The notes beneath the pieces are model-generated. The model saw only the letters and a list, made by a program, of their open reading frames with translations, did no database searches and was not told the DNA's origin. Shown in pieces: positions 3,521 to 13,463 of a DNA stretch of 64,000 bases. The DNA is from Rhizobium sp. N324 (GTDB lineage Bacteria; Pseudomonadota; Alphaproteobacteria; Rhizobiales; Rhizobiaceae). Made by a program: the position numbers and the translations under genes. Within the stretch, counting starts at the first letter, position 1. Each line of letters opens with the position of its first letter. The DNA lies in assembly GCF_001664485.1 (NCBI RefSeq), contig NZ_CP013635.1, positions 372,001 to 436,000 on the forward strand, given 5' to 3'.

Positions 3521-4135
3521 TCAACGCAACCCCCACCCCAGAAGCAGCATGCCGCTCGCAGCCGTCCAGCTGCCAACCACCCGCATTGCAATGCGTGTCC
3601 AGTTCCACTTCGCTTTCAGGATGGCAGCCGAGACGAGGGTGATCAAAACGAAGACAAGGCCAGCTGACCCGATGACCGCAGCCGGACCGTCGCCGATGGC
3701 AAAGTATGCCGAGCCGAAATTGTACCCTTCAAACGCGCCGAACAGTATCGCGAGCAACGCCAAACACCAGGCGGGCATTCGAATGTCGGTCGCCACCAGT
3801 CCTCCCAGCATGAGCAAGGGCAGACTTTCGTAGGCAGGACTGACGGCGAGTGGGCCGAGCAACATCCCGACGAACCCGAATACGACCCACGCGGTCGGCA
3901 GGATCACCACCGAGGCCCGGGCATGGGCCAGCCCTCGAAGTCCGGCCAATATGCCAAGCGCGATGATGGGCAGAATGACTTCCGGCGACATCGCAAAATG
4001 CGCGACGCCATCGTAGACAGGTCCCAATCCCGTATTGACCAGATGAGCGCCGGCGTCCGCCGGACTCGCAAGAATTCCGGCGGCCGCCAACGCAGCGCGA
4101 ACGCGTTTTCTTCCGGGAGCCCCAGCCTCTGTCAT
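3521..4135 (-). CDS. HupE/UreJ-like membrane protein, third copy
   Basis: This 204-residue inner-membrane protein has about six hydrophobic segments. A signal peptide ends in ADAGA, so cleavage would leave a mature N-terminus starting HLVNTGLGPVYDGVAHF. This resembles HupE/UreJ proteins, some of which import nickel or a related divalent metal. It lacks the HPITGLDH motif of its neighbour, so it is a divergent relative. The ATG at 4135 overlaps the stop of the upstream HupE gene (ATGA), which fixes the start and implies translational coupling. It is the last gene of the DUF3604-parvulin-HupE operon. The transported metal is unknown. Confidence 0.75.
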   Translation of the reverse strand: MTEAGAPGRKRVRAALAAAGILASPADAGAHLVNTGLGPVYDGVAHFAMSPEVILPIIALGILAGLRGLAHARASVVILPTAWVVFGFVGMLLGPLAVSPAYESLPLLMLGGLVATDIRMPAWCLALLAILFGAFEGYNFGSAYFAIGDGPAAVIGSAGLVFVLITLVSAAILKAKWNWTRIAMRVVGSWTAASGMLLLGWGLR

Positions 4136-4731
4136 GCGAGTGCATTCCACAAAAAGAGTGCGCCGACTGCGCCGACCGCTCCCCCTGCGGCCCTGACGGT
4201 GATCTTGCCCCACGGCCACTGGTAGAGCAGTCCAATGACGATGCCGGTCGCGTGCAACAGTCCCGTGGCGATCACGAAGCCGAGGCTGAAGAACAGTGCG
4301 TTTTCACCGGGAGGCAATTCGGCACCGTGTGCGTAACCGTGGAAGATCGCGAATACTCCGACGAGGATCGCTGCAGCGACGAGCGGCGGCCGGATTTCGG
4401 CCAGAACAGCCGCCCCCAGCAGGATACCAGATAGTGCTATGCCGATTTCAACGCCCGATAGGGACACGCCGAGAAGGCCGAGGAAGCCGCCGAATGCCAT
4501 GACCAAGGGGAAGGTGATGGGAAGCAGCCAGATTGCCGGCTTGCCCAACTGCGCGCCCCACAGACCCACCGCGATCATCGCCACGACGTGATCGAGCCCG
4601 GTGATGGGATGAAGGAAGCCGACGGCCAAACCCGATGCGCCTCCCGTTCCGACATGCGCCTCGGCAACGCCCGCGGAAAGGAGAAGCGCCGTGACGACAA
4701 GACCCGTATTCCGATTTGATCCGCCTCTCAT
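4132..4731 (-). CDS. HupE/UreJ family membrane protein (putative metal permease)
   Basis: This 199-residue protein is the canonical HupE/UreJ member of the trio. The signal peptide ends GVAEA and the mature chain begins HVGTGGASG. The family motif HPITGLDHVVAMIAVGLWG lies near residues 41-59, with FHGYAHG in the second half. Those histidines are the expected metal ligands. HupE proteins of hydrogenase loci are nickel permeases, but no hydrogenase or urease gene is in view here, so copper, nickel or cobalt are all open. It overlaps the genes on both sides by four bases (ATGA-type), so the three HupE proteins are probably made together. Confidence 0.87.
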   Translation of the reverse strand: MRGGSNRNTGLVVTALLLSAGVAEAHVGTGGASGLAVGFLHPITGLDHVVAMIAVGLWGAQLGKPAIWLLPITFPLVMAFGGFLGLLGVSLSGVEIGIALSGILLGAAVLAEIRPPLVAAAILVGVFAIFHGYAHGAELPPGENALFFSLGFVIATGLLHATGIVIGLLYQWPWGKITVRAAGGAVGAVGALFLWNALA

Positions 4732-5762
4732 GCGGCTCCCCCCAACATTGCTGCGATGCGATCAATGGTCCAGTAGGCGCCCAATATCCCGACTACATAG
4801 GCAGGCATCAGTTCCAGGCCGCGCGGCAATCTAACCTCGATCGATTTCAAGGCGGCAGTAAGCAGCAGGATCAGTCCCACGAATGCCAGTTGGCCAGCCT
4901 CGACCCCAAGATTGAACATCAGTAGCGCAAACGGGATGTCGCCCTGCGGCAGGCCCAGCGCCGTCAGTCCGCTCGCAAATCCAAACCCGTGCAACAGCCC
5001 GAAGGCGAAGGAGACGATCCACGGGTGACGGATGGTAAAGCTCGTCTGCCCACGCCATACCCGGACGATCTCGGGGCCGAGAAACAGGATGGACAGTGCA
5101 ATCACCGCATTGAGCGGCAGCGCCGGAACAGCGATCTCTCCCAGCGTCGCGACCGCGAGAGTGATGGAATGGGCGACCGTAAAAGCGGTGATCGTCTTCA
5201 CCAGCATCCACCGCGAGCGGACGATGAAGAGCAGACCGAAGACGAATAGCAGATGATCTATGCCGAGAAGAATGTGCTGGATGCCGTTCACGAAGTACAC
5301 TCTCGCCGCAGCAAGTGGGCTGCGGCTGGCGGCGAAGTCGATCCAGGGCTGAGATGGATGGATCATCGTCGTCTCGACGGTGCCATCCTGCAGATGAACG
5401 CGAACCAGTACATCGGTGATGGTCGCCTGCAAGCCGACGAACTCAACCTGCTTGCCTGCAAGGCCATCGCCATCCGTCTCGATCACCCGCGTTTCGACAA
5501 GCGAATCTGGAAGATCACGTTCTGCCGGCATCGTCACGTTGCGCACACCGTCCGAAAATCTGATCGTAACCGGGAGGCGCATGCCCGATAGCATGGGCGT
5601 CCGCCAAACGACCTTGTAGCGGTTTGCTGCCATCTCATCGATCTGGAGGTAGGCAGGCCGTATCTCGTGGGCGCAGGCGGCTTCAACGAGCGTAAGGACG
5701 GCGACGACGACGCCGAAAAGCAGATGCCCAAGGTCCCCGGACAATATCCACGCGCGCCTCAT
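4728..5762 (-). CDS. HupE/UreJ_2 family membrane protein with periplasmic N-terminal domain
   Basis: This 344-residue protein has a signal peptide ending EAACA. A periplasmic domain of roughly 125 residues follows, starting HEIRPAYLQIDE. Then come about six to seven membrane helices containing GIQHILLGIDHLLFVFGLLF and FGLLHGFGFA, the His/Asp-rich motifs of the HupE/UreJ_2 type. The mature N-terminal histidine, as in the two other copies, suggests metal binding in the periplasm. It overlaps the parvulin gene upstream and the next HupE gene downstream by four bases each. Metal transport is inferred from family and motifs. Confidence 0.85.
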   Translation of the reverse strand: MRRAWILSGDLGHLLFGVVVAVLTLVEAACAHEIRPAYLQIDEMAANRYKVVWRTPMLSGMRLPVTIRFSDGVRNVTMPAERDLPDSLVETRVIETDGDGLAGKQVEFVGLQATITDVLVRVHLQDGTVETTMIHPSQPWIDFAASRSPLAAARVYFVNGIQHILLGIDHLLFVFGLLFIVRSRWMLVKTITAFTVAHSITLAVATLGEIAVPALPLNAVIALSILFLGPEIVRVWRGQTSFTIRHPWIVSFAFGLLHGFGFASGLTALGLPQGDIPFALLMFNLGVEAGQLAFVGLILLLTAALKSIEVRLPRGLELMPAYVVGILGAYWTIDRIAAMLGGAA

Positions 5763-6745
5763 TGCGCCGACACCTCAAGCCCGAGGTTGAAGCCTGGCGG
5801 CACCCGCAAGTCCTGAAAGTCGGCGGCGTCGATGGGCGGCGCGACAATCGTGTAGCGCGACCGCATTTCATCCAGCGCCGAGTTCTTGATCTCGCGATAC
5901 TTGTCGTCGATCCAGCCCGCCTTCACGTTTGGCATCACCTCGGCATAGGTTGGGATCCGGCCTGGTTCGATGGAGTCGATCCAGACGAGATGCCAGCCGT
6001 ATCCCGATTTGACCGGTCCGGCCCATTTCCCCGGAGCGAGCTGGAAGAGTGTCTTGGAGAACTCCGGCCCGAATTCCTTCGCCATCTGATCGGGAGTGGC
6101 GTCGCCGTAATTGCTCTGGAACATGAAGGGATCGCCGATTGCGGCCACTTCGCTGGATTCGGGAGAATTCCCCTCGATTAGAGCCAGAGCGGCTGCGGCC
6201 GCCTCCTTGGTTTCTTTCCCGTGCCGGTCCGTCGAGAAATAGAGATGTCGGAACGTCGCATGTGCAGGGAGCGCGAAGGTATCCGAATTTTTCTCGAACC
6301 AGTCCTTCAGCTCCGCGTCGGTCGGCTCCTGCAGGGCGGCTACGTCGCTGGCGAGAAAGTCCATCTTCTGCGCCAGCCGGCGCTTGACCACCTCGTCGTC
6401 GCGATCAAGCCCGAGGGCGACGGCTTCCCGAAAGAGGATTTCCTGCGTCACTTTCTGATCGACGAGGCCGCGCACCTGTTCCGGCGTCGGGGTCGACCTT
6501 CCCTGCGCCAGCCAGCTTATCGCCAGTTGCCGGACGTCGTCCTTGGTCAAAACGATCCGGTTTATGGTCGCCGCGCCATCCCGCGCTGGCGTCAGCACAT
6601 AATAGCCTCCAAACAGCAAGGCTCCGGCGGCGACGAAGTGGAGCAGCGGCTCGCTGACAAGTCGCCGCAATCTCCCCGAGGCGTTATGGTCGCCGCCGTC
6701 TGCATTGCCGAAGGGCTCAGGCCTTTCTTCAGGAGGCAGTTTCAC
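5759..6745 (-). CDS. Membrane-anchored parvulin-type peptidyl-prolyl isomerase
   Basis: This 328-residue protein has one N-terminal membrane helix at about residues 34-51. A SurA/PrsA-like helical region (VDQKVTQEILFREAVALGLD) follows. A PpiC domain lies around residues 160-265, with the typical end YGWHLVWIDSIEPGRIP. The catalytic part should face the periplasm and isomerise prolyl bonds in exported proteins. The gene lies 12 bases after the DUF3604 gene and overlaps the first HupE gene. A dedicated folding role for the operon's secreted or membrane products is the simplest reading. Confidence 0.87.
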   Translation of the reverse strand: MKLPPEERPEPFGNADGGDHNASGRLRRLVSEPLLHFVAAGALLFGGYYVLTPARDGAATINRIVLTKDDVRQLAISWLAQGRSTPTPEQVRGLVDQKVTQEILFREAVALGLDRDDEVVKRRLAQKMDFLASDVAALQEPTDAELKDWFEKNSDTFALPAHATFRHLYFSTDRHGKETKEAAAAALALIEGNSPESSEVAAIGDPFMFQSNYGDATPDQMAKEFGPEFSKTLFQLAPGKWAGPVKSGYGWHLVWIDSIEPGRIPTYAEVMPNVKAGWIDDKYREIKNSALDEMRSRYTIVAPPIDAADFQDLRVPPGFNLGLEVSAQ

Positions 6746-6757
6746 TGGCCCGCCTCC

Positions 6758-8965
6758 TTATCGAATTACGGCCTGGACTTCGTAGTTCGCATAGCCGAAT
6801 TCATCGCTCCTGGCGGCCACGTACTTGTCGCCGGACGAATAGACCGTCAACTCGAACGGAGTACCATCGATCGTCGTGATGATGTGGCCGTCCTTGATTG
6901 CATAATCGGCCGACGATCCCGACGTGCTCGGATGCATGATCTGCAGAACGTCATCCACGCTGGGTTGACCACCGTTCAGCTCGGTTATGACGCGCTGACC
7001 ATGCTCACCGAACAGGACATCGAAATTCTGGTTGGTGACCCTGTTGCGTACTTTCAACGTCTTCCCAACGACGAGTTCCTTCAGTTGATCGTTGGTGAGC
7101 GCGACGGCTCCTGCCTTGGTCAGATCGTCGACGATCAGCCCGCGCTCGGCCTTGGCGACGGCCGCAGGGGTCGGCGTATACCAGATTGGTGTCGTCCAGG
7201 CGCGTTCCTGAACCGTCGCCGCCACGCTGCTCGGGGGCAGGATGCCAAGCTTGACGGCATCGTACGTGCTCCAGCGCGGCGTCGGGATCTGCAAGACACG
7301 CGAGTAATAGAAGGCATGCAGGCTTGGCTCGAACTCCGGGTCGCTCCACACCGCCTTCAGTTCCACGGCGCCGATATCATTGGTGTAGGTCGCCTTGGTG
7401 ATGTCGACGGTGCTTCCCACCGGAGGGAGTTTGCCGGTCACCGGATCCGGTTGACGACTTCCTGCCCAGGCCACGTCGAATATCTTTTCGAAGATCTGGC
7501 CCTGCTTGGTCCAGCCCTTGACGATCTGGATACGATCGAGATTGGCGTCGTCGGGGTCCTTCACCGCAGCAACGATGAAGGTGGGAACCTTGTCATCGGC
7601 CGCAGGAAGATCACCGCCCATCGGGACGCCGCCGGCGTATGCGGTTTTTGCCCAGCCCGCGTTGGCAAGAACGCCTTTGTCGTAGTCCCAGCCGCCAAAC
7701 ATGCGTGCCTGGATCCGCACGCCGCTGGTGGCATAGACCTCCTTGCGCTGCATGGCGTTGAAGATGGAATCACGCGTGTTCTGTTCCGCCCAAACGACGG
7801 TCAAACCCGAGGTCCCAGTCTCCATAATGTTCATGCCGGACGCAACTTTGCCGGCCAGTCGTGCGGCCGGCGTCGCGTCGACGAGCCCGTGATCGCCGAA
7901 GAAGTTGGACTGCGAGTAAGCGGTGACGGTGTTGTGCGAGTCGCCGGCCCCGACCACCCCGAACTTGTAGGGGTTGTAGCCGCGGGTCGCCTGCATGGCC
8001 AAACCGTTCTCGTAGGCTTCGCGCGCGTAGCTTCCATGCAGCTTGGACGTGCTGTTGTCGATCCCGATCAGGTAATTCATGATCTCGAAGTTGGCGAACT
8101 CGTCGTTCGGCGAGAGATCAGGATGCGTCTCGGAGGCCCCCTTTGCCTGCTTGAGTTCCGTCAGCGGCTCGTTGGTCATGCGTTGTTGCGCCCAGGCGGC
8201 GTCGAGCGGATTGCCCTTGCTGTCGACGTCAGTCGGAAACATGATCCCGTTGGACAGGTTCGCGTTGTGAGAGATGGCCAGCACCTCGTTCCCGGCCTTG
8301 CGCTGGCCGTCCATCCACGCCCATAGGTCTTCGGGATGGTCTGAATCGAGGGCAGAGAACGGCATCACCGGGACCTTTGCGCAGTCCTTGAAGAAGACGT
8401 TGCGATGCATGTTCTGGTTATTGGGCATCGATGTCCACTCGTACGAGCAGAAGGCGGTGAACTGGCCGGGCTTGTTGTACTTGTCGGCGATGGCGACGTT
8501 CTGCTTCCAGATAGACCCGGCGAGTTCCGGCTTCACCAGCTCCGTGAGCGGTTTGCCGCTTGCAATGCTGTCGGCCAGAAACGAGAAAATCTTCGTGGCG
8601 CTATTTTCTTTGGTCACCTTCAGCTTCTCGGCGATCGGAAGCTTACTGATCGGCGATGTGGGATCGTTCGCAAGACGAACGACGCCCACATACTCCGAGT
8701 GATCGGTCACGCCCTGAAAATCGAGGGGTGTTTTGATCTTCACGTCGAAGCCCGCCGGATGCTTGATCGTCTGCCCCATGGAGTACTGGTAAGCCTCTTC
8801 CGGCCCAGTCACCGTGTTTCCGATGATGTAGGCATCAAGCGACCAGCTCGTGTGCTGGTGGGTCTGCCCGAAGTATGCGTGCCGTTCCTGGGCGCCAGCT
8901 CCGGTCGCAGCCACTGCGAGGATCGTTGAGGAAAGCAAAATTGTGACCCGGTTTGCCCTGCGCAT
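6758..8965 (-). CDS. Secreted DUF3604 protein (PHP-like metal-dependent hydrolase candidate)
   Basis: The protein has 735 residues from an ATG at 8965, with GAGGG about 10 bases upstream. An earlier in-frame ATG at 9097 would bury the signal peptide. Residues 1-25 are a Sec signal ending TGAGA. The mature part carries PHP-like metal motifs: YFGQTHQHTS (His36, His38), GVTDHSEY (Asp88, His89), SYEWT, MHRN, AISHNANLSNG (His233) and GAGDSHN (Asp342, His344). DUF3604 proteins are widespread and have no settled function. The motifs suggest a periplasmic metallohydrolase, perhaps phosphoesterase-like. It is the first gene of an operon with a parvulin and three HupE-type proteins. Confidence 0.9.
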   Translation of the reverse strand: MRRANRVTILLSSTILAVAATGAGAQERHAYFGQTHQHTSWSLDAYIIGNTVTGPEEAYQYSMGQTIKHPAGFDVKIKTPLDFQGVTDHSEYVGVVRLANDPTSPISKLPIAEKLKVTKENSATKIFSFLADSIASGKPLTELVKPELAGSIWKQNVAIADKYNKPGQFTAFCSYEWTSMPNNQNMHRNVFFKDCAKVPVMPFSALDSDHPEDLWAWMDGQRKAGNEVLAISHNANLSNGIMFPTDVDSKGNPLDAAWAQQRMTNEPLTELKQAKGASETHPDLSPNDEFANFEIMNYLIGIDNSTSKLHGSYAREAYENGLAMQATRGYNPYKFGVVGAGDSHNTVTAYSQSNFFGDHGLVDATPAARLAGKVASGMNIMETGTSGLTVVWAEQNTRDSIFNAMQRKEVYATSGVRIQARMFGGWDYDKGVLANAGWAKTAYAGGVPMGGDLPAADDKVPTFIVAAVKDPDDANLDRIQIVKGWTKQGQIFEKIFDVAWAGSRQPDPVTGKLPPVGSTVDITKATYTNDIGAVELKAVWSDPEFEPSLHAFYYSRVLQIPTPRWSTYDAVKLGILPPSSVAATVQERAWTTPIWYTPTPAAVAKAERGLIVDDLTKAGAVALTNDQLKELVVGKTLKVRNRVTNQNFDVLFGEHGQRVITELNGGQPSVDDVLQIMHPSTSGSSADYAIKDGHIITTIDGTPFELTVYSSGDKYVAARSDEFGYANYEVQAVIR

Positions 8966-9238: not shown

Positions 9239-11059
9239 GTGCAGGCCGTGCAGAACAAATTGCCGATGGGAGGCGAAGATGCGCCGTCCCTGTCACGCCC
9301 TGCTCCGGCTCCCGATGATATTCGTGATCAACTCGCGATCATCATCGCCAGTCCCGAATTCCCCCATATTGGTCGTAGCGCCGCGTTCCTGACCTATGTG
9401 ACAGAAGAAGCGCTCGCTGGCCGCGCAGAACGCATTAAGGGCTACACCATCGCGGTCGAAGTCTTCAAGCGTAACGAAGATTTCAAACAGGACGACCCCG
9501 TAGTGCGGATAGAGGCTGGGCGTCTGCGGCGTTTGCTGGAGCGCTATTACCTCGTAGCAGGGCAGCATGATCCCATAAGGATCGACATTCCCAAAGGAGG
9601 ATACGCACCTTCCTTCGCCTGGAATGACGAGGTGGAACACCTCCCCACGCAGGATGTCATCTCAGCGGCAACTCAAGGGTTGCGCTTCCGCTTGCACAAC
9701 CTGACGCCGGCCGGTGTCGGAGCCGGCGTAATGCTCGGTATTGGCGTCGTCGTCTTGGCCTTGTCCACCCACCTGTTGCCCGGCGGGCCGAACACGCTCC
9801 TATCGCATGGGGGTCCGACATTGGTCGTCGCCCCGTTCGCCGATCTTGGCGACGGGCGGCAAGCGGAACTCTACTCGGCCGGCCTGACCGAGGAATTGTT
9901 GACGGCCCTCCCTCGCTTCAAGGAAGTGCAGGTGTTCGGGCGTGAGACGTCCAAATCGCTGTCACCCGGCGTGCCCGCCTTCCAGGTGCGCGGAGAGCTT
10001 GGCGCGCGGTTTCTGCTCGCAGGCAGCGTGCGTGTTTCAGGCAAGCGGGTGCGCGTGGCAGTGCGCCTGGTGGATACCGAAACCGACAAGATTCTCTGGT
10101 CGGATACCTATGACGACGACACCGACACCCGCGACTTGTTCAGCATTCAGTCCGACGTTGCGAACAAAGTTGCGACCACGGTTGCCCAGCCATATGGAAT
10201 CATGGCCCAGGCGGATGCCGTCAATCCTCCCCCGGACAATGTTGGCGTCTACACCTGCACCCAGAGTTTCTACGCCTACCGCGCGGAGTTGACGATGAAT
10301 CTGCATGCCAAGGTGCGGAGTTGCCTTGAGAGGGCGGTCGAACGCTACCCGACGCTGGCCACAGGCTGGGCTATGCTGTCGATCCTCTATCTCGACGAGG
10401 AGCGATTCCGGTTCAATACAAGGTCCGGCATACCGACACCGGTCGAGCGCAGCCTCAGCGCCGCTCGGCGCGCAGTTCAACTGGACTCAGGCAATACCCG
10501 CGCACTGCAGGCTCTGATGACCGCGCTATTCTTCAACCAGCAGGTCGCCGAGGCGTTCATGGTCGGCGAACAGGCATTGGAAACCAACCCGAACGATACG
10601 GAGCTTCTGGGCGAGTTCGGCACGCGTGTCGCCCAGAGCGGGCAATGGGAGCGCGGGGCAGCGTTGCTGGATCGTGCACTGGAACTCAACCCCGGTGGCG
10701 GCGGCTTCTATCACGGAACGCGTGCCCTCGCCGCCTACATGCTACATGACAACAGAACTGCAGTCTTAGAGATCCGGCAGGCGGATATGCAGAAGTTTCC
10801 GCTTTATCATGCGGTTGCGGCCGTCATTTACGTAAACGCCGACATGATGGACGAGGCCCGCCGAGAGGCCGCCCGGTTCAACGAACTGCGTCCCGACTTC
10901 ATTCCGAACATCGTGACCGAGCTGAAATCGCGCAACTTCCAGCCCGCGGATCGGGCGAGATTGATCGCCGACATCAGGAAGGCCGGACTGCCTGCGGTGG
11001 ACGAGGTTCAGGCGTCGATGCTGCTTCCGGCAGAGAGGCGCCCATTTTCTCTGCCCTAG
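9239..11059 (+). CDS. Membrane-anchored TPR protein with TolB-like domain (CadC/adenylate-cyclase-associated type)
   Basis: This is a 606-residue protein. Residues 25-125 form a cytosolic N-terminal domain found in many rhizobial TPR proteins (RSAAFLTYVTEEALAGRAER, then VVRIEAGRLRRLLERYY). One membrane helix spans about 158-180. A TolB/FlgO-like domain (LVVAPFADLGDG to RDLFSIQSDVA) covers 193-325. TPR-like helices run to the end. Such proteins are often misnamed adenylate cyclases, but no cyclase domain is visible here. The layout suggests a membrane sensor or regulator with a periplasmic TolB/TPR part. The start is GTG, and a second GTG at 9248 is possible. It is divergent from the DUF3604 operon and may control it. 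Confidence 0.75.
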   Translation: MQAVQNKLPMGGEDAPSLSRPAPAPDDIRDQLAIIIASPEFPHIGRSAAFLTYVTEEALAGRAERIKGYTIAVEVFKRNEDFKQDDPVVRIEAGRLRRLLERYYLVAGQHDPIRIDIPKGGYAPSFAWNDEVEHLPTQDVISAATQGLRFRLHNLTPAGVGAGVMLGIGVVVLALSTHLLPGGPNTLLSHGGPTLVVAPFADLGDGRQAELYSAGLTEELLTALPRFKEVQVFGRETSKSLSPGVPAFQVRGELGARFLLAGSVRVSGKRVRVAVRLVDTETDKILWSDTYDDDTDTRDLFSIQSDVANKVATTVAQPYGIMAQADAVNPPPDNVGVYTCTQSFYAYRAELTMNLHAKVRSCLERAVERYPTLATGWAMLSILYLDEERFRFNTRSGIPTPVERSLSAARRAVQLDSGNTRALQALMTALFFNQQVAEAFMVGEQALETNPNDTELLGEFGTRVAQSGQWERGAALLDRALELNPGGGGFYHGTRALAAYMLHDNRTAVLEIRQADMQKFPLYHAVAAVIYVNADMMDEARREAARFNELRPDFIPNIVTELKSRNFQPADRARLIADIRKAGLPAVDEVQASMLLPAERRPFSLP

Positions 11060-11222
11060 ACAGGATGTCGTCCGAAAACCACTTACACTTTTTCGGCGTC
11101 ATTCTCTCGAGGATCCACCTCGAGGACGGCCGTCACGCCACAGAACATACCAGAAGTTACGGGCGCCCGACGACTTTGAGCGTTAGGTTTTCTTGCCTGA
11201 GCGGGTTGGCCGGAGTGGGTTG

Positions 11223-12563
11223 ATGGCTTTGCGTGTGTTCGGTTTCAACAGAGGGCAATCTGTGCGCATTGGTGGTGGGGGAGTGTCGGCTCCAAAGAGC
11301 TGGTGTCGTTGGTTTGTTGTCTGTGTCGTCACTGTCCTGCTTCCAGGATGTGGCGGCCATCCGAAGGACGTTCTGACTCCGGTAGCCGACACGTCTCCAC
11401 AGTCGACGAAAGTCGACATGTTGATTGCGACGACCCGCACCCGGTCGGCGGTTCCAGGTGAGATGTTCAACGGAGAACGCGCGCGGGCACCCGCCTTCGC
11501 CGACATGACGATATCCATCCCGCCGGGCAAAGTTCGCAAGGAAGGACAGGTCGCCTGGCCGAAGAGATTGCCGGCCAATCCCGCCACCCACTTCGCCACC
11601 GTCAAGGCCGACGATCTCGACATCGATGCAGCCAAGAAATGGCTGAGCACGAGCGTCAGGAAAACGCCCGACGGCAGCGTCCTCGTGTTCATCCATGGTT
11701 TCAACAATCGGTTCGAGGATGCCGTCTACCGTTTCGCGCAAATCGTCCACGATTCCGGCGTCCATAGCGCACCGATACTCGTCACATGGCCCTCGCGCGG
11801 TAGTCTGCTCGCTTACGGCTACGACCGTGAGAGCACCAACTACACGCGCAACGCGTTGGAAACGCTCTTCCAATATCTGGCTAAAGACGCCGAGGTGAAG
11901 GAGGTCTCTATCCTCGCGCATTCGATGGGCAACTGGCTGGCGCTGGAGTCCTTGCGCCAGATGGCCATCCGCAACGGCCGCCTGCCGCAGAAATTCAAGA
12001 ACGTCATGCTCGCGGCACCCGACGTCGACGTCGATGTCTTCAGCCAGCAAATCGCCGACATGGGCAAGCAGCATCCGCAGTTTACACTATTCGTATCGCG
12101 CGACGACAAAGCGCTGGCGTTTTCGCGCCGCGTCTGGGGCGACGTCTCCCGGCTTGGCGCGATCGACCCGGAGCAAGCTCCTTACAAGAAGGAGCTTGAA
12201 GACAACAAGATCATGGTCATCGATCTCACCAAGATCAAATCCGGCGACAGGATGAACCATGGCAAGTTCGCGGAATCGCCTGAGATCGTCCAGCTCATCG
12301 GCCAGCGCATCTCCGAGGGGCAGACGTTGACGGATAGCAGGGTCGGACTGGGGGACCAGATCCTGGTTGCAACAACTGGGGCGGCGGCGGCCGCCGGAAA
12401 TGTCGCCGGTCTGGTTCTGGCCGCGCCCGTCGCCGTGGTCGATCAGGACACGCGCGACAACTACGCAACCCACGTAGGAAGCCTCGCGGGTACAGGCGGC
12501 ACCTCGCCGACCGCGCCCCAAAATTGCGACGAGACCCGACCGGCTCCGGGCTGCAAACGCTGA
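11223..12563 (+). CDS. DUF900-type alpha/beta-hydrolase lipoprotein
   Basis: The protein has 446 residues. A lipobox VLLPGC lies near residue 43, so it is probably a lipoprotein in the envelope. The hydrolase core shows VLVFIHGFNNRFEDAV, the nucleophile elbow ILAHSMGNW and VMLAAPDVDVDVF, all typical of DUF900 serine hydrolases. The substrate is unknown. I chose the ATG at 11223, 8 bases after GGAG. A GTG at 11283 would give a cleaner 23-residue lipoprotein signal and may be the true start. A paralogue lies at 18525-19676 on the other strand. The Thr/Pro-rich tail after residue 400 looks disordered. Confidence 0.8.
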   Translation: MALRVFGFNRGQSVRIGGGGVSAPKSWCRWFVVCVVTVLLPGCGGHPKDVLTPVADTSPQSTKVDMLIATTRTRSAVPGEMFNGERARAPAFADMTISIPPGKVRKEGQVAWPKRLPANPATHFATVKADDLDIDAAKKWLSTSVRKTPDGSVLVFIHGFNNRFEDAVYRFAQIVHDSGVHSAPILVTWPSRGSLLAYGYDRESTNYTRNALETLFQYLAKDAEVKEVSILAHSMGNWLALESLRQMAIRNGRLPQKFKNVMLAAPDVDVDVFSQQIADMGKQHPQFTLFVSRDDKALAFSRRVWGDVSRLGAIDPEQAPYKKELEDNKIMVIDLTKIKSGDRMNHGKFAESPEIVQLIGQRISEGQTLTDSRVGLGDQILVATTGAAAAAGNVAGLVLAAPVAVVDQDTRDNYATHVGSLAGTGGTSPTAPQNCDETRPAPGCKR

Positions 12564-12674
12564 CGTCGCGGACAGAGACTACTGTAATATACATGGCTAT
12601 GAGCAGCTTTTTACTGCATGTTTTGATGGGGGACACAGACGGAACGATTCCGTCTCGGCCAAATGAGGGACTGC

Positions 12675-13463
12675 ATGCGGATTTTATTGTTGCGAACCGC
12701 GGTGTTGTGCGCCGGCCTTAGCGTTGCGTCTTCAGCATATCCAGCCGACATCGCGCCAGGCATTCCGGAAGCCAAGGTGATTGAGAGCGAAAGCGGCTGG
12801 ACCTATACGGCCGCCCCATACTTCTGGGCTGCCGGATTGTCGGGAGACATGGCGCAGTTTGGCTTGCCGGAAGTCCACATCGACTCCAGCTTCGACGACA
12901 TACTGGAGAACCTCGACTTCGCCTTCATGGCTGCGGGTGAAGCCCGCTACGACCGTTTCAGCATCTTTGCCGACATCATGTACACCAAGCTCGGAGCGGA
13001 CGCGAGCACGCGAAACGGAATCCTGGCCGACAGCGTCGACGTCACCTCGAAGACCTTCGCGGGACTGCTCGGGGCCGGATATTCCGTGATCGAGAACCAG
13101 TCAGGGCATCTCGACATCGTCGGCGGCGTCCGTGTTTGGTCGGTCGACACGACGATAGGATTCAATGGCGGCCTACTCGGCGGCCGCGAAGCGGACGACG
13201 GTGCGACCTGGGTCGACGCCGTCGCCGGTGTCCGGGGCAATTACTTCTTCACGCCCGAAATCTATGTGACCGGATGGGGCCTGGTGGGCGCCGGCGGCGC
13301 CGATCTCGACTGGGACGTCTCGCTCGCCCTCGGCTACAAATTCAACGACACGATCTCGGCGGTCGCCGGCTACCGGGCGGTCGGTGTGAATTACGACAAT
13401 GACGGGTTTGTCTTCGACGTCGTCGAGCAGGGACCGATCATCGGCGTGGCCTTTCACTTTTAG
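12675..13463 (+). CDS. Outer-membrane beta-barrel protein
   Basis: This 262-residue protein has a Sec signal (MRILLLRTAVLCAGLSVASS) ending near AYPA. The mature part alternates polar and apolar residues, as in eight-stranded beta-barrels. Examples are WTYTAAPYFWAAGL, NYFFTPEIYVTGWGLVGAGG and LALGYKFNDTISAVAGYRAV. It ends GVAFHF, the C-terminal aromatic typical of outer-membrane proteins. The ATG at 12675 has AGGGA upstream, better than the in-frame ATG at 12663. Function is structural or porin-like, otherwise unknown. It is convergent with corA across a strong hairpin. Confidence 0.75.
   Translation: MRILLLRTAVLCAGLSVASSAYPADIAPGIPEAKVIESESGWTYTAAPYFWAAGLSGDMAQFGLPEVHIDSSFDDILENLDFAFMAAGEARYDRFSIFADIMYTKLGADASTRNGILADSVDVTSKTFAGLLGAGYSVIENQSGHLDIVGGVRVWSVDTTIGFNGGLLGGREADDGATWVDAVAGVRGNYFFTPEIYVTGWGLVGAGGADLDWDVSLALGYKFNDTISAVAGYRAVGVNYDNDGFVFDVVEQGPIIGVAFHF

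Follow-up and report, generated by a model that had tools for sequence, protein, structure and literature searches.

Here we report that a parvulin-type peptidyl-prolyl isomerase (PpiC) and a permease-like membrane protein with a periplasmic domain (HupE_UreJ_2), encoded side by side in a five-gene operon of Rhizobium sp. N324 (contig NZ_CP013635.1; positions 3,521 to 8,965 of the 64,000-nucleotide stretch analysed, hereafter the window), form a movable accessory module and not the private operon of the neighbouring enzyme, DUF3604. On a slight balance of probability, we read this pair as a folding-and-metal-loading cassette for metallohydrolases exported by the Sec route, because of its co-inheritance with DUF3604, its occurrence in trans, a change of neighbouring enzyme, the conserved PHP metal ligands of DUF3604, the rarity of twin-arginine signals and the precedent of TerC and PrsA. 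The operon core is the pair plus an enzyme. Features of the operon, in window positions, are:

8965-6758, minus strand: DUF3604 (PF12228), predicted exported PHP-fold metallohydrolase; 735 amino acids (aa), 714.6 bits; N-terminal signal sequence by inspection, without a twin-arginine consensus.
8852..8860, minus strand: PHP motif I of DUF3604, H36-x-H38; codons checked; invariant in alignment A1 and conserved in 87/89 and 88/89 proteins of the wider set.
7934..7942, minus strand: PHP motif IV of DUF3604, D342-x-H344; codons checked; invariant in A1 and conserved in 89/89 each.
6745-5759, minus strand: PpiC-type peptidyl-prolyl isomerase (parvulin, PF13145); 328 aa, 75.7 bits; N-terminal membrane anchor by inspection.
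5762-4728, minus strand: HupE_UreJ_2 (PF13795), with a signal sequence, a periplasmic beta-sandwich domain (about residues 32-147) and a helical, permease-like membrane domain; 344 aa, 148.3 bits.
5667..5669, minus strand: His32 of HupE_UreJ_2, predicted mature residue 1 (ACA|HEIRPAYL); codon checked, cleavage site by eye.
4731-4132, minus strand: HupE_UreJ (PF04955), permease-like, optional part of the operon; 199 aa, 181.5 bits; HX5DH and FHGX[AV]HGXE motifs present.
4135-3521, minus strand: degenerate HupE-like membrane protein, optional part; 204 aa from an ATG that overlaps the preceding stop; PF04955 at 36.6 bits (longer frame 3521-4219).

Layout of the operon

The five genes are co-directional, with a 12-base gap between DUF3604 and PpiC followed by three 4-base overlaps, and the original prediction of a five-gene unit spaced in this way was borne out by gene calls and coordinates. 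Its coherence as a unit of five held for the PpiC–HupE_UreJ_2 core with DUF3604; the two PF04955 genes are an optional add-on, present in some loci only. HX5DH and FHGX[AV]HGXE are the metal motifs of HupE/UreJ permeases. The last HupE-like protein (4135-3521) has neither of them, which makes the original count of three metal permeases too strong. PF13795 and PF04955 were the sole families matching the permease-like proteins at E up to 0.01, the TerC domain PF03741 not being among them, and no hydrogenase or urease was found among the window frames named with Pfam. Among the matches listed, the DUF3604 protein nearest to that of the window comes from Rhizobium leguminosarum (95%); at about 87%, the whole operon has counterparts in five Rhizobium phaseoli plasmid records.

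The pair accompanies DUF3604

A search with the DUF3604 protein itself gave 32 loci in named genomes, 24 of which carry DUF3604, PpiC and HupE_UreJ_2 together, including Betaproteobacteria, Blastocatellia and Myxococcota bins; the remaining eight have one partner (L021, L028 and L032) or none (five loci). To counter the bias of that search, we drew 397 Pseudomonadota genomes evenly, of which 37 have a PF12228 match. Both partners lie within about 18 kilobases (kb) in 31 of the 42 DUF3604 regions from this draw, and the other 11 are mostly extra copies where a linked one exists or belong to three genomes (G215, G247 and G373) with the pair elsewhere; the neighbourhood survey suggested with the original prediction thus found adjacency to HupE and PpiC genes to be common, not rare. 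All ten DUF3604 regions from the genus of the window have both partners (10/10, L103 repeating L008). PpiC is directly upstream of 76 of the 78 HupE_UreJ_2 subfamily members fetched, the two misses (L021 and L183) being cut by contig ends. Because of this position of PpiC and the 31 regions with both partners, the gene order is not due to chance. Of the 64 pairs measured, 40 have a PpiC–HupE_UreJ_2 overlap of exactly four bases, the position of DUF3604 relative to the pair varies, and at two loci (L204 and L205) PpiC is downstream, not upstream, of HupE_UreJ_2.

Beyond the pair, the surroundings of these loci are variable. After leaving out 18 loci (near-repeats or dropped before) and removing by hand 26 of 124 listed genes, mostly short or doubtful frames, we obtained 98 flanking genes, in which the commonest families (Sulfatase, DUF1254 and LysR) occur four times each, the only constant is the pair, and the clues to a substrate are scattered, none of them consistent. 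Dropped loci were L086 and L103, which repeat L004 and L008, L185, which repeats part of L146, and L105.

The link to PpiC is specific to one subfamily of PF13795. PpiC is directly upstream of none of the 49 PF13795 proteins fetched from outside the subfamily, a subset of all hits, and four more that were read later also lack it. In a tree of the membrane domain with 154 tips, a single clade of 106 (support 0.87) contains all 101 PpiC-linked members; its five other tips are four copies near contig ends and one fusion, L117, and no exception-free clade has more than 32 tips. The 220-bit cut for the subfamily was chosen after the scores had been seen, and members linked to arginase-family enzymes score 188-216 bits, below it; these are nevertheless PpiC-linked, except for L209, which is cut by a contig end, and the clade is therefore defined by the tree and not by the cut. 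Within the PpiC-linked clade the permeases linked to arginase make up a single branch of 6 tips with support 1.0; support nearby is low (0.57-0.68). The fusion (L117:5537-6523), which lies inside the clade, begins as a DUF3604 protein, with PHP motif I and a lipoprotein-like signal, and finishes as HupE_UreJ_2; to judge from its frame it is a deletion remnant of the operon that lost the middle.

For co-inheritance, we counted HupE_UreJ_2 as full length where a match to profile A2 covered the periplasmic domain (32 of the 397 genomes), and found a full-length member of the subfamily in all 30 genomes whose DUF3604 is strong and full length versus 2 of the 367 others (Fisher P = 4e-43, a value that ignores shared ancestry). 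The 30 strong genomes come from the 37 with a PF12228 match after dropping G121 and G360 (divergent) and G031, G127, G151, G202 and G355 (weak or fragments); lenient counting gives 31 of 32 DUF3604 genomes versus 3 of 365 others. The two non-strong genomes with HupE_UreJ_2 are G294 and G151. In G151 the pair adjoins a DUF3604 remnant, and near it lies a protein with a metallo-beta-lactamase fold and a signal-like N-terminus (L112:8527-10848) that may be another client.

The link to DUF3604 does not depend on adjacency: the pair was found elsewhere in 8 of the 14 genomes with unlinked DUF3604 that were checked, and in G215, G247 and G373 every DUF3604 gene is unlinked. The phylum of the Blastocatellia locus, which we take to be Acidobacteriota, has PF12228 matches in 20 of 149 genomes, and 3 of the 20 DUF3604 regions fetched from it include the pair (L146, L149 and L151). 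Five genomes (G546, G565, G574, G583 and G592) each have 7-8 listed DUF3604 copies (at least 520 bits) and exactly one pair among their PF13795 hits, located on another contig or more than 300 kb from any listed DUF3604 copy. PF12228 matches number 8-11 in each of these five (for example L152-L160 and L163-L165), some being pieces of one gene.

The neighbouring enzyme can change

In genome G354, which has the pair but no DUF3604, three arginase-family proteins whose N-termini look signal-like by eye flank the pair. The family of this genome (f43) lies outside the class of the window, presumably in the Gammaproteobacteria; 275 of its genomes were searched with a second profile (A4) and all 27 new full-length loci were read. 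DUF3604 is nearby in 21 of these loci, an arginase-family protein in five and neither in one (L210, a contig end). PpiC is adjacent in 25 of the 27; L209 is cut off at the edge of its contig, and the contig of L202 stops within the DUF3604 copy located after HupE_UreJ_2.

Arginase-family (PF00491) proteins lie near the pair in six f43 genomes (L114, L206, L207, L209, L212 and L213), five of the frames being confirmed by Pfam (177-257 bits) and the remainder by the genome search. At least one arginase in each of the six genomes keeps the motifs GGDHS, D[AS]HxD and SFD[VI]DVxDP, the second motif reading D-S-H-Y-D, not D-A-H-x-D, in L207, L212, L213 and the first copy of L114. In G863 another short contig (L222) carries the other end of the cluster, where PpiC comes after an intact arginase, and G851 has four pairs, three by DUF3604 and one by an arginase. 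Since the pair is found both at a distance from DUF3604 and next to arginase-family enzymes, it is not solely the operon of one enzyme. Some loci hold extra arginase-family copies that lack some or all of the metal motifs (L114:7838-9307, L212:2519-3907 and L209:2-1333), which suggests non-catalytic partners.

Properties of the encoded proteins

DUF3604 is predicted to be a PHP-fold metal-dependent hydrolase, since its structure model has this fold. Nine metal-ligand positions (H36, H38, D44, H89, E176, H187, H233, D342 and H344) are conserved in 87-89 of 89 DUF3604 proteins, in the order H-H-D-H-E-H-H-D-H of the PHP superfamily; the ninth ligand, and the mapping of the ligands of PolX onto DUF3604 positions, are our own assignment. 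Eight PolX metal ligands are named in the available part of PMC6616362. The proteins are mostly about 610-750 aa long, with extra beta domains. As to export, 83 of 87 DUF3604 frames (L017 and L031 left out) lack even a loose twin-arginine pattern in the whole stretch before PHP motif I. Because the ligands are conserved in the PHP-fold model and a twin-arginine signal is mostly absent, DUF3604 is probably exported unfolded and metal-free. Taken with the position of PpiC, the PHP-fold model and its ligands uphold the earlier view of a PHP-like exported protein, a membrane-anchored parvulin and permease-like proteins as a co-travelling unit.

PpiC matches parvulin chains in the PDB (5ez1, E = 3.3e-12). 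Its His252, taken as the catalytic-site histidine of the rotamase domain, is conserved in 71 of 72 proteins, and the second histidine position is His in 39 and Gln in 33 of 72. PDB sequence searches with DUF3604 and HupE_UreJ_2, both single and profile, gave no match, for HupE_UreJ_2 at E up to 1. The HX5DH motif is retained in all 65 distinct HupE_UreJ_2 proteins checked, and H163, D169, H170, H198, H258 and E288 are invariant in 72 of 72, an alignment that includes one member not linked to PpiC (L107). The periplasmic domain is modelled like the zinc proteins ZrgA and PA4063, with ZrgA (8F1B) as the nearest solved fold, and a Foldseek search with the whole HupE_UreJ_2 model found no match at E up to 0.001; fold comparison hardly covered the membrane domain. 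Asp rather than His at mature residue 1 goes with lipoprotein-type DUF3604 (8/11 Asp versus 8/53 His, 3 unassigned; pattern-based), a correlation in which the residue call is wrong for at least L099 (actually His) and which shared ancestry may explain.

Neighbouring genes

Upstream of the operon in the window is a divergent gene (9239-11059) for a membrane protein with TPR repeats, found near DUF3604 in 9 distinct loci and annotated as 'adenylate cyclase' at the same place in Rhizobium sp. Pop5; it is a possible regulator of the operon. It is followed by genes for a DUF900 alpha/beta hydrolase (11193-12563) and a possible outer-membrane beta-barrel protein (12663-13463), found near DUF3604 in 5 and 10 distinct loci, respectively (all three counts include the window). 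DUF1254/DUF1214-type proteins occur near DUF3604 in 11 distinct loci (for example L012:12253-18137, L023, L092, L007 and L186), including four consecutive frames in a Marinobacter locus; Pfam was run on two of the frames and on flanking ones. A recurrent unnamed protein lies between or beside operon genes in four loci (L098:9929-11047, L104:4168, L061:12401 and L066:10356), with no Pfam match for L098 and L061 and a CxxC near the predicted mature start in L098. Rhizobium sp. Pop5 encodes an unnamed 414-aa protein without a Pfam match between DUF3604 and PpiC (L186:11191-12435). A manganese-riboswitch link was also considered and is not supported, as the Rfam threshold was reached in none of 19 stretches.

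Proposed mechanism

Sec substrates reach the far side of the membrane unfolded and without metal. DUF3604 would leave the cytoplasm in this state, whereupon the membrane-anchored PpiC would bind it and isomerise its prolines. HupE_UreJ_2 would hand over a divalent metal as the enzyme folds; the metal could come from the cytoplasm, by way of the membrane domain of HupE_UreJ_2, or be picked up in the periplasm. The periplasmic domain of HupE_UreJ_2 is modelled as a beta-sandwich of a metal-binding type with His or Asp at the mature N-terminus. The two PF04955 proteins may provide a further, optional metal transporter, in which the last one would be a partner lacking a metal motif of its own. Our guess for the metal is Mn(II) first and zinc second, because arginase-family enzymes usually use Mn(II), which PHP enzymes also commonly contain. 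In its widest form, which we advance tentatively and hold to have not quite an even chance of being right, the proposal is that Gram-negative bacteria possess a portable machine encoded by two genes. A dedicated parvulin and a HupE_UreJ_2 permease, which would transfer metal and carry a periplasmic metal domain of its own, would together fold metallohydrolases that leave by Sec and differ in fold (PHP/DUF3604 and the arginase family), and would metalate them, probably with manganese; this would be a second solution to exoenzyme metalation, evolved independently of TerC/PrsA. The earlier suggestion that the enzyme is folded and supplied with metal by its own operon still appears the best reading by analogy, and the change of client adds to it; what did not last is the restriction to an operon of its own.

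The nearest functional precedent is in Bacillus subtilis, where MeeF and MeeY (TerC family) are reported to metalate Sec exoenzymes and co-purify with the parvulin PrsA and the translocon, with metalation proposed during or after translocation (PMC10550928, in the part available). That system likewise joins a membrane metal protein to a parvulin foldase. MeeF and MeeY, unlike the window pair, belong to PF03741 (LysE superfamily) and affect several exported enzymes, as far as the same source extends; the window protein is a PF13795 member with a periplasmic domain, encoded alongside its own parvulin and tied to one enzyme family, with metalation proposed by analogy.

HupE/UreJ nickel permeases share HX5DH, plus FHGX[AV]HGXE in the gene at 4731-4132, and differ in that HupE_UreJ_2 has an added periplasmic domain and the last gene lacks both motifs. 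Closer in architecture is the anglerase Ang-1-HupE/UreJ-2, which according to the consulted portion of PMC12537917 shares the signal peptide (by inspection here), the periplasmic beta-sandwich, the HupE_UreJ_2 membrane domain, a His as first mature residue (predicted for the window protein) and ZrgA as nearest solved fold; its own entry, 9GCE, is not among the fold matches listed for HupE_UreJ_2. In that source the Ang-1 periplasmic domain has about 176 residues, versus about 115 in the window protein, and residue 1 is His in 100%, versus His or Asp here; window-type HupE_UreJ_2 is linked to PpiC, and the main text of the paper, as available, names neither PpiC nor DUF3604.

Alternative explanations

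This resemblance underlies an alternative that we regard as unlikely, namely that DUF3604 and arginase-type enzymes act on metal-binding compounds outside the cytoplasm, an anglerase-like HupE_UreJ_2 imports the freed nickel, copper or zinc, and PpiC merely folds exported proteins. Ang-1, with the same layout, binds Cu (dissociation constant 74 nM) and Ni (220 nM), and the proposal for it is that it supplies a permease working as an importer (PMC12537917, consulted portion). The metal motifs of the HupE protein at 4731-4132 agree with import, as do the TonB-dependent receptors adjoining the arginase-type loci L206 and L207. However, import leaves unexplained why one kind of pair accompanies two unrelated metallohydrolase families, and why one pair goes with many DUF3604 copies, and there is no consistent metal-uptake neighbour among the 98 flanking genes.

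We give still less credence to folding without metal transfer, in which PpiC is a client-specific chaperone like NifM and HupE_UreJ_2 an anchor or scaffold whose periplasmic domain holds the client. The client of NifM is cytoplasmic, and we know of no permease partner for it. NifM is the best NCBIfam match of PpiC, although at 38.7 bits it is far under the cut-off of 168.2, and residue 1 of HupE_UreJ_2 varies between His and Asp. NifM is described as a PpiC-domain protein that NifH, the nitrogenase iron protein, requires for its maturation in some bacteria (PMC12691677, in part), which makes it a client-specific helper of a metalloprotein. Against this explanation stand the retained HX5DH and the six invariant residues of HupE_UreJ_2, which are expected for metal passage and needless in a pure scaffold. 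That DUF3604 and HupE_UreJ_2 merely share a catabolic or stress pathway, without direct contact between pair and enzyme, is very improbable: LysR regulators, sulfatases, DUF1254/DUF1214 proteins and short-chain dehydrogenases recur near some loci, but no neighbour besides the pair is constant and the pair sits beside arginase-family enzymes in another lineage.

Several observations weigh against the cassette reading itself. HupE relatives are known as importers, the opposite of what a periplasmic client needs, and uptake is also argued in PMC12537917 (consulted portion). His at mature residue 1 of HupE_UreJ_2 is not constant (H 59/72, D 13/72, with Asn in some further relatives), and Rfam at the gathering score found no riboswitch or other regulatory RNA in 19 stretches (the first 20 kb of the window, 10 other loci and 8 more). 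A loose twin-arginine pattern does occur in 4 of the 87 DUF3604 frames (L018, L030, L057 and L066), probably upstream of the true start in three of them, leaving L057 as the only possible Tat signal. Genome G294 has the pair with neither a DUF3604 match nor a long-type arginase. No pair was found in 6 of the 14 genomes checked with unlinked DUF3604: G121 (divergent DUF3604), G455 (internal stop) and G483, G501, G526 and G547 (short contigs). Four further loci (L019, L020, L022 and L030) have no pair near DUF3604, a result for the locus only, their genomes being outside the 14. Finally, Sb-PDE of Sphingobium TCM1 is a secreted phosphodiesterase of the PHP superfamily with 2.1 zinc per subunit and, like most DUF3604 proteins, without a Tat motif; unlike DUF3604, it has 441 aa and PF02811, and it was active when expressed alone in E. 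coli (PMC5460133, in part), which shows that a pair of this kind is not a general requirement of exported PHP enzymes.

Implications

In the open-licence PMC literature searched, a scope in which absence is not proof, no publication was seen to link HupE or UreJ to PpiC or DUF3604, PF12228 is absent and DUF3604 has a passing mention in one paper. Copper and zinc outcompete manganese in the periplasm, and how enzymes exported unfolded by Sec acquire the correct metal there has long been asked; TerC/PrsA of Bacillus is a partial answer. If the cassette reading is true, DUF3604 gains its first functional frame, and a Gram-negative two-gene system with a fixed client family would make the question testable in ordinary laboratory strains.

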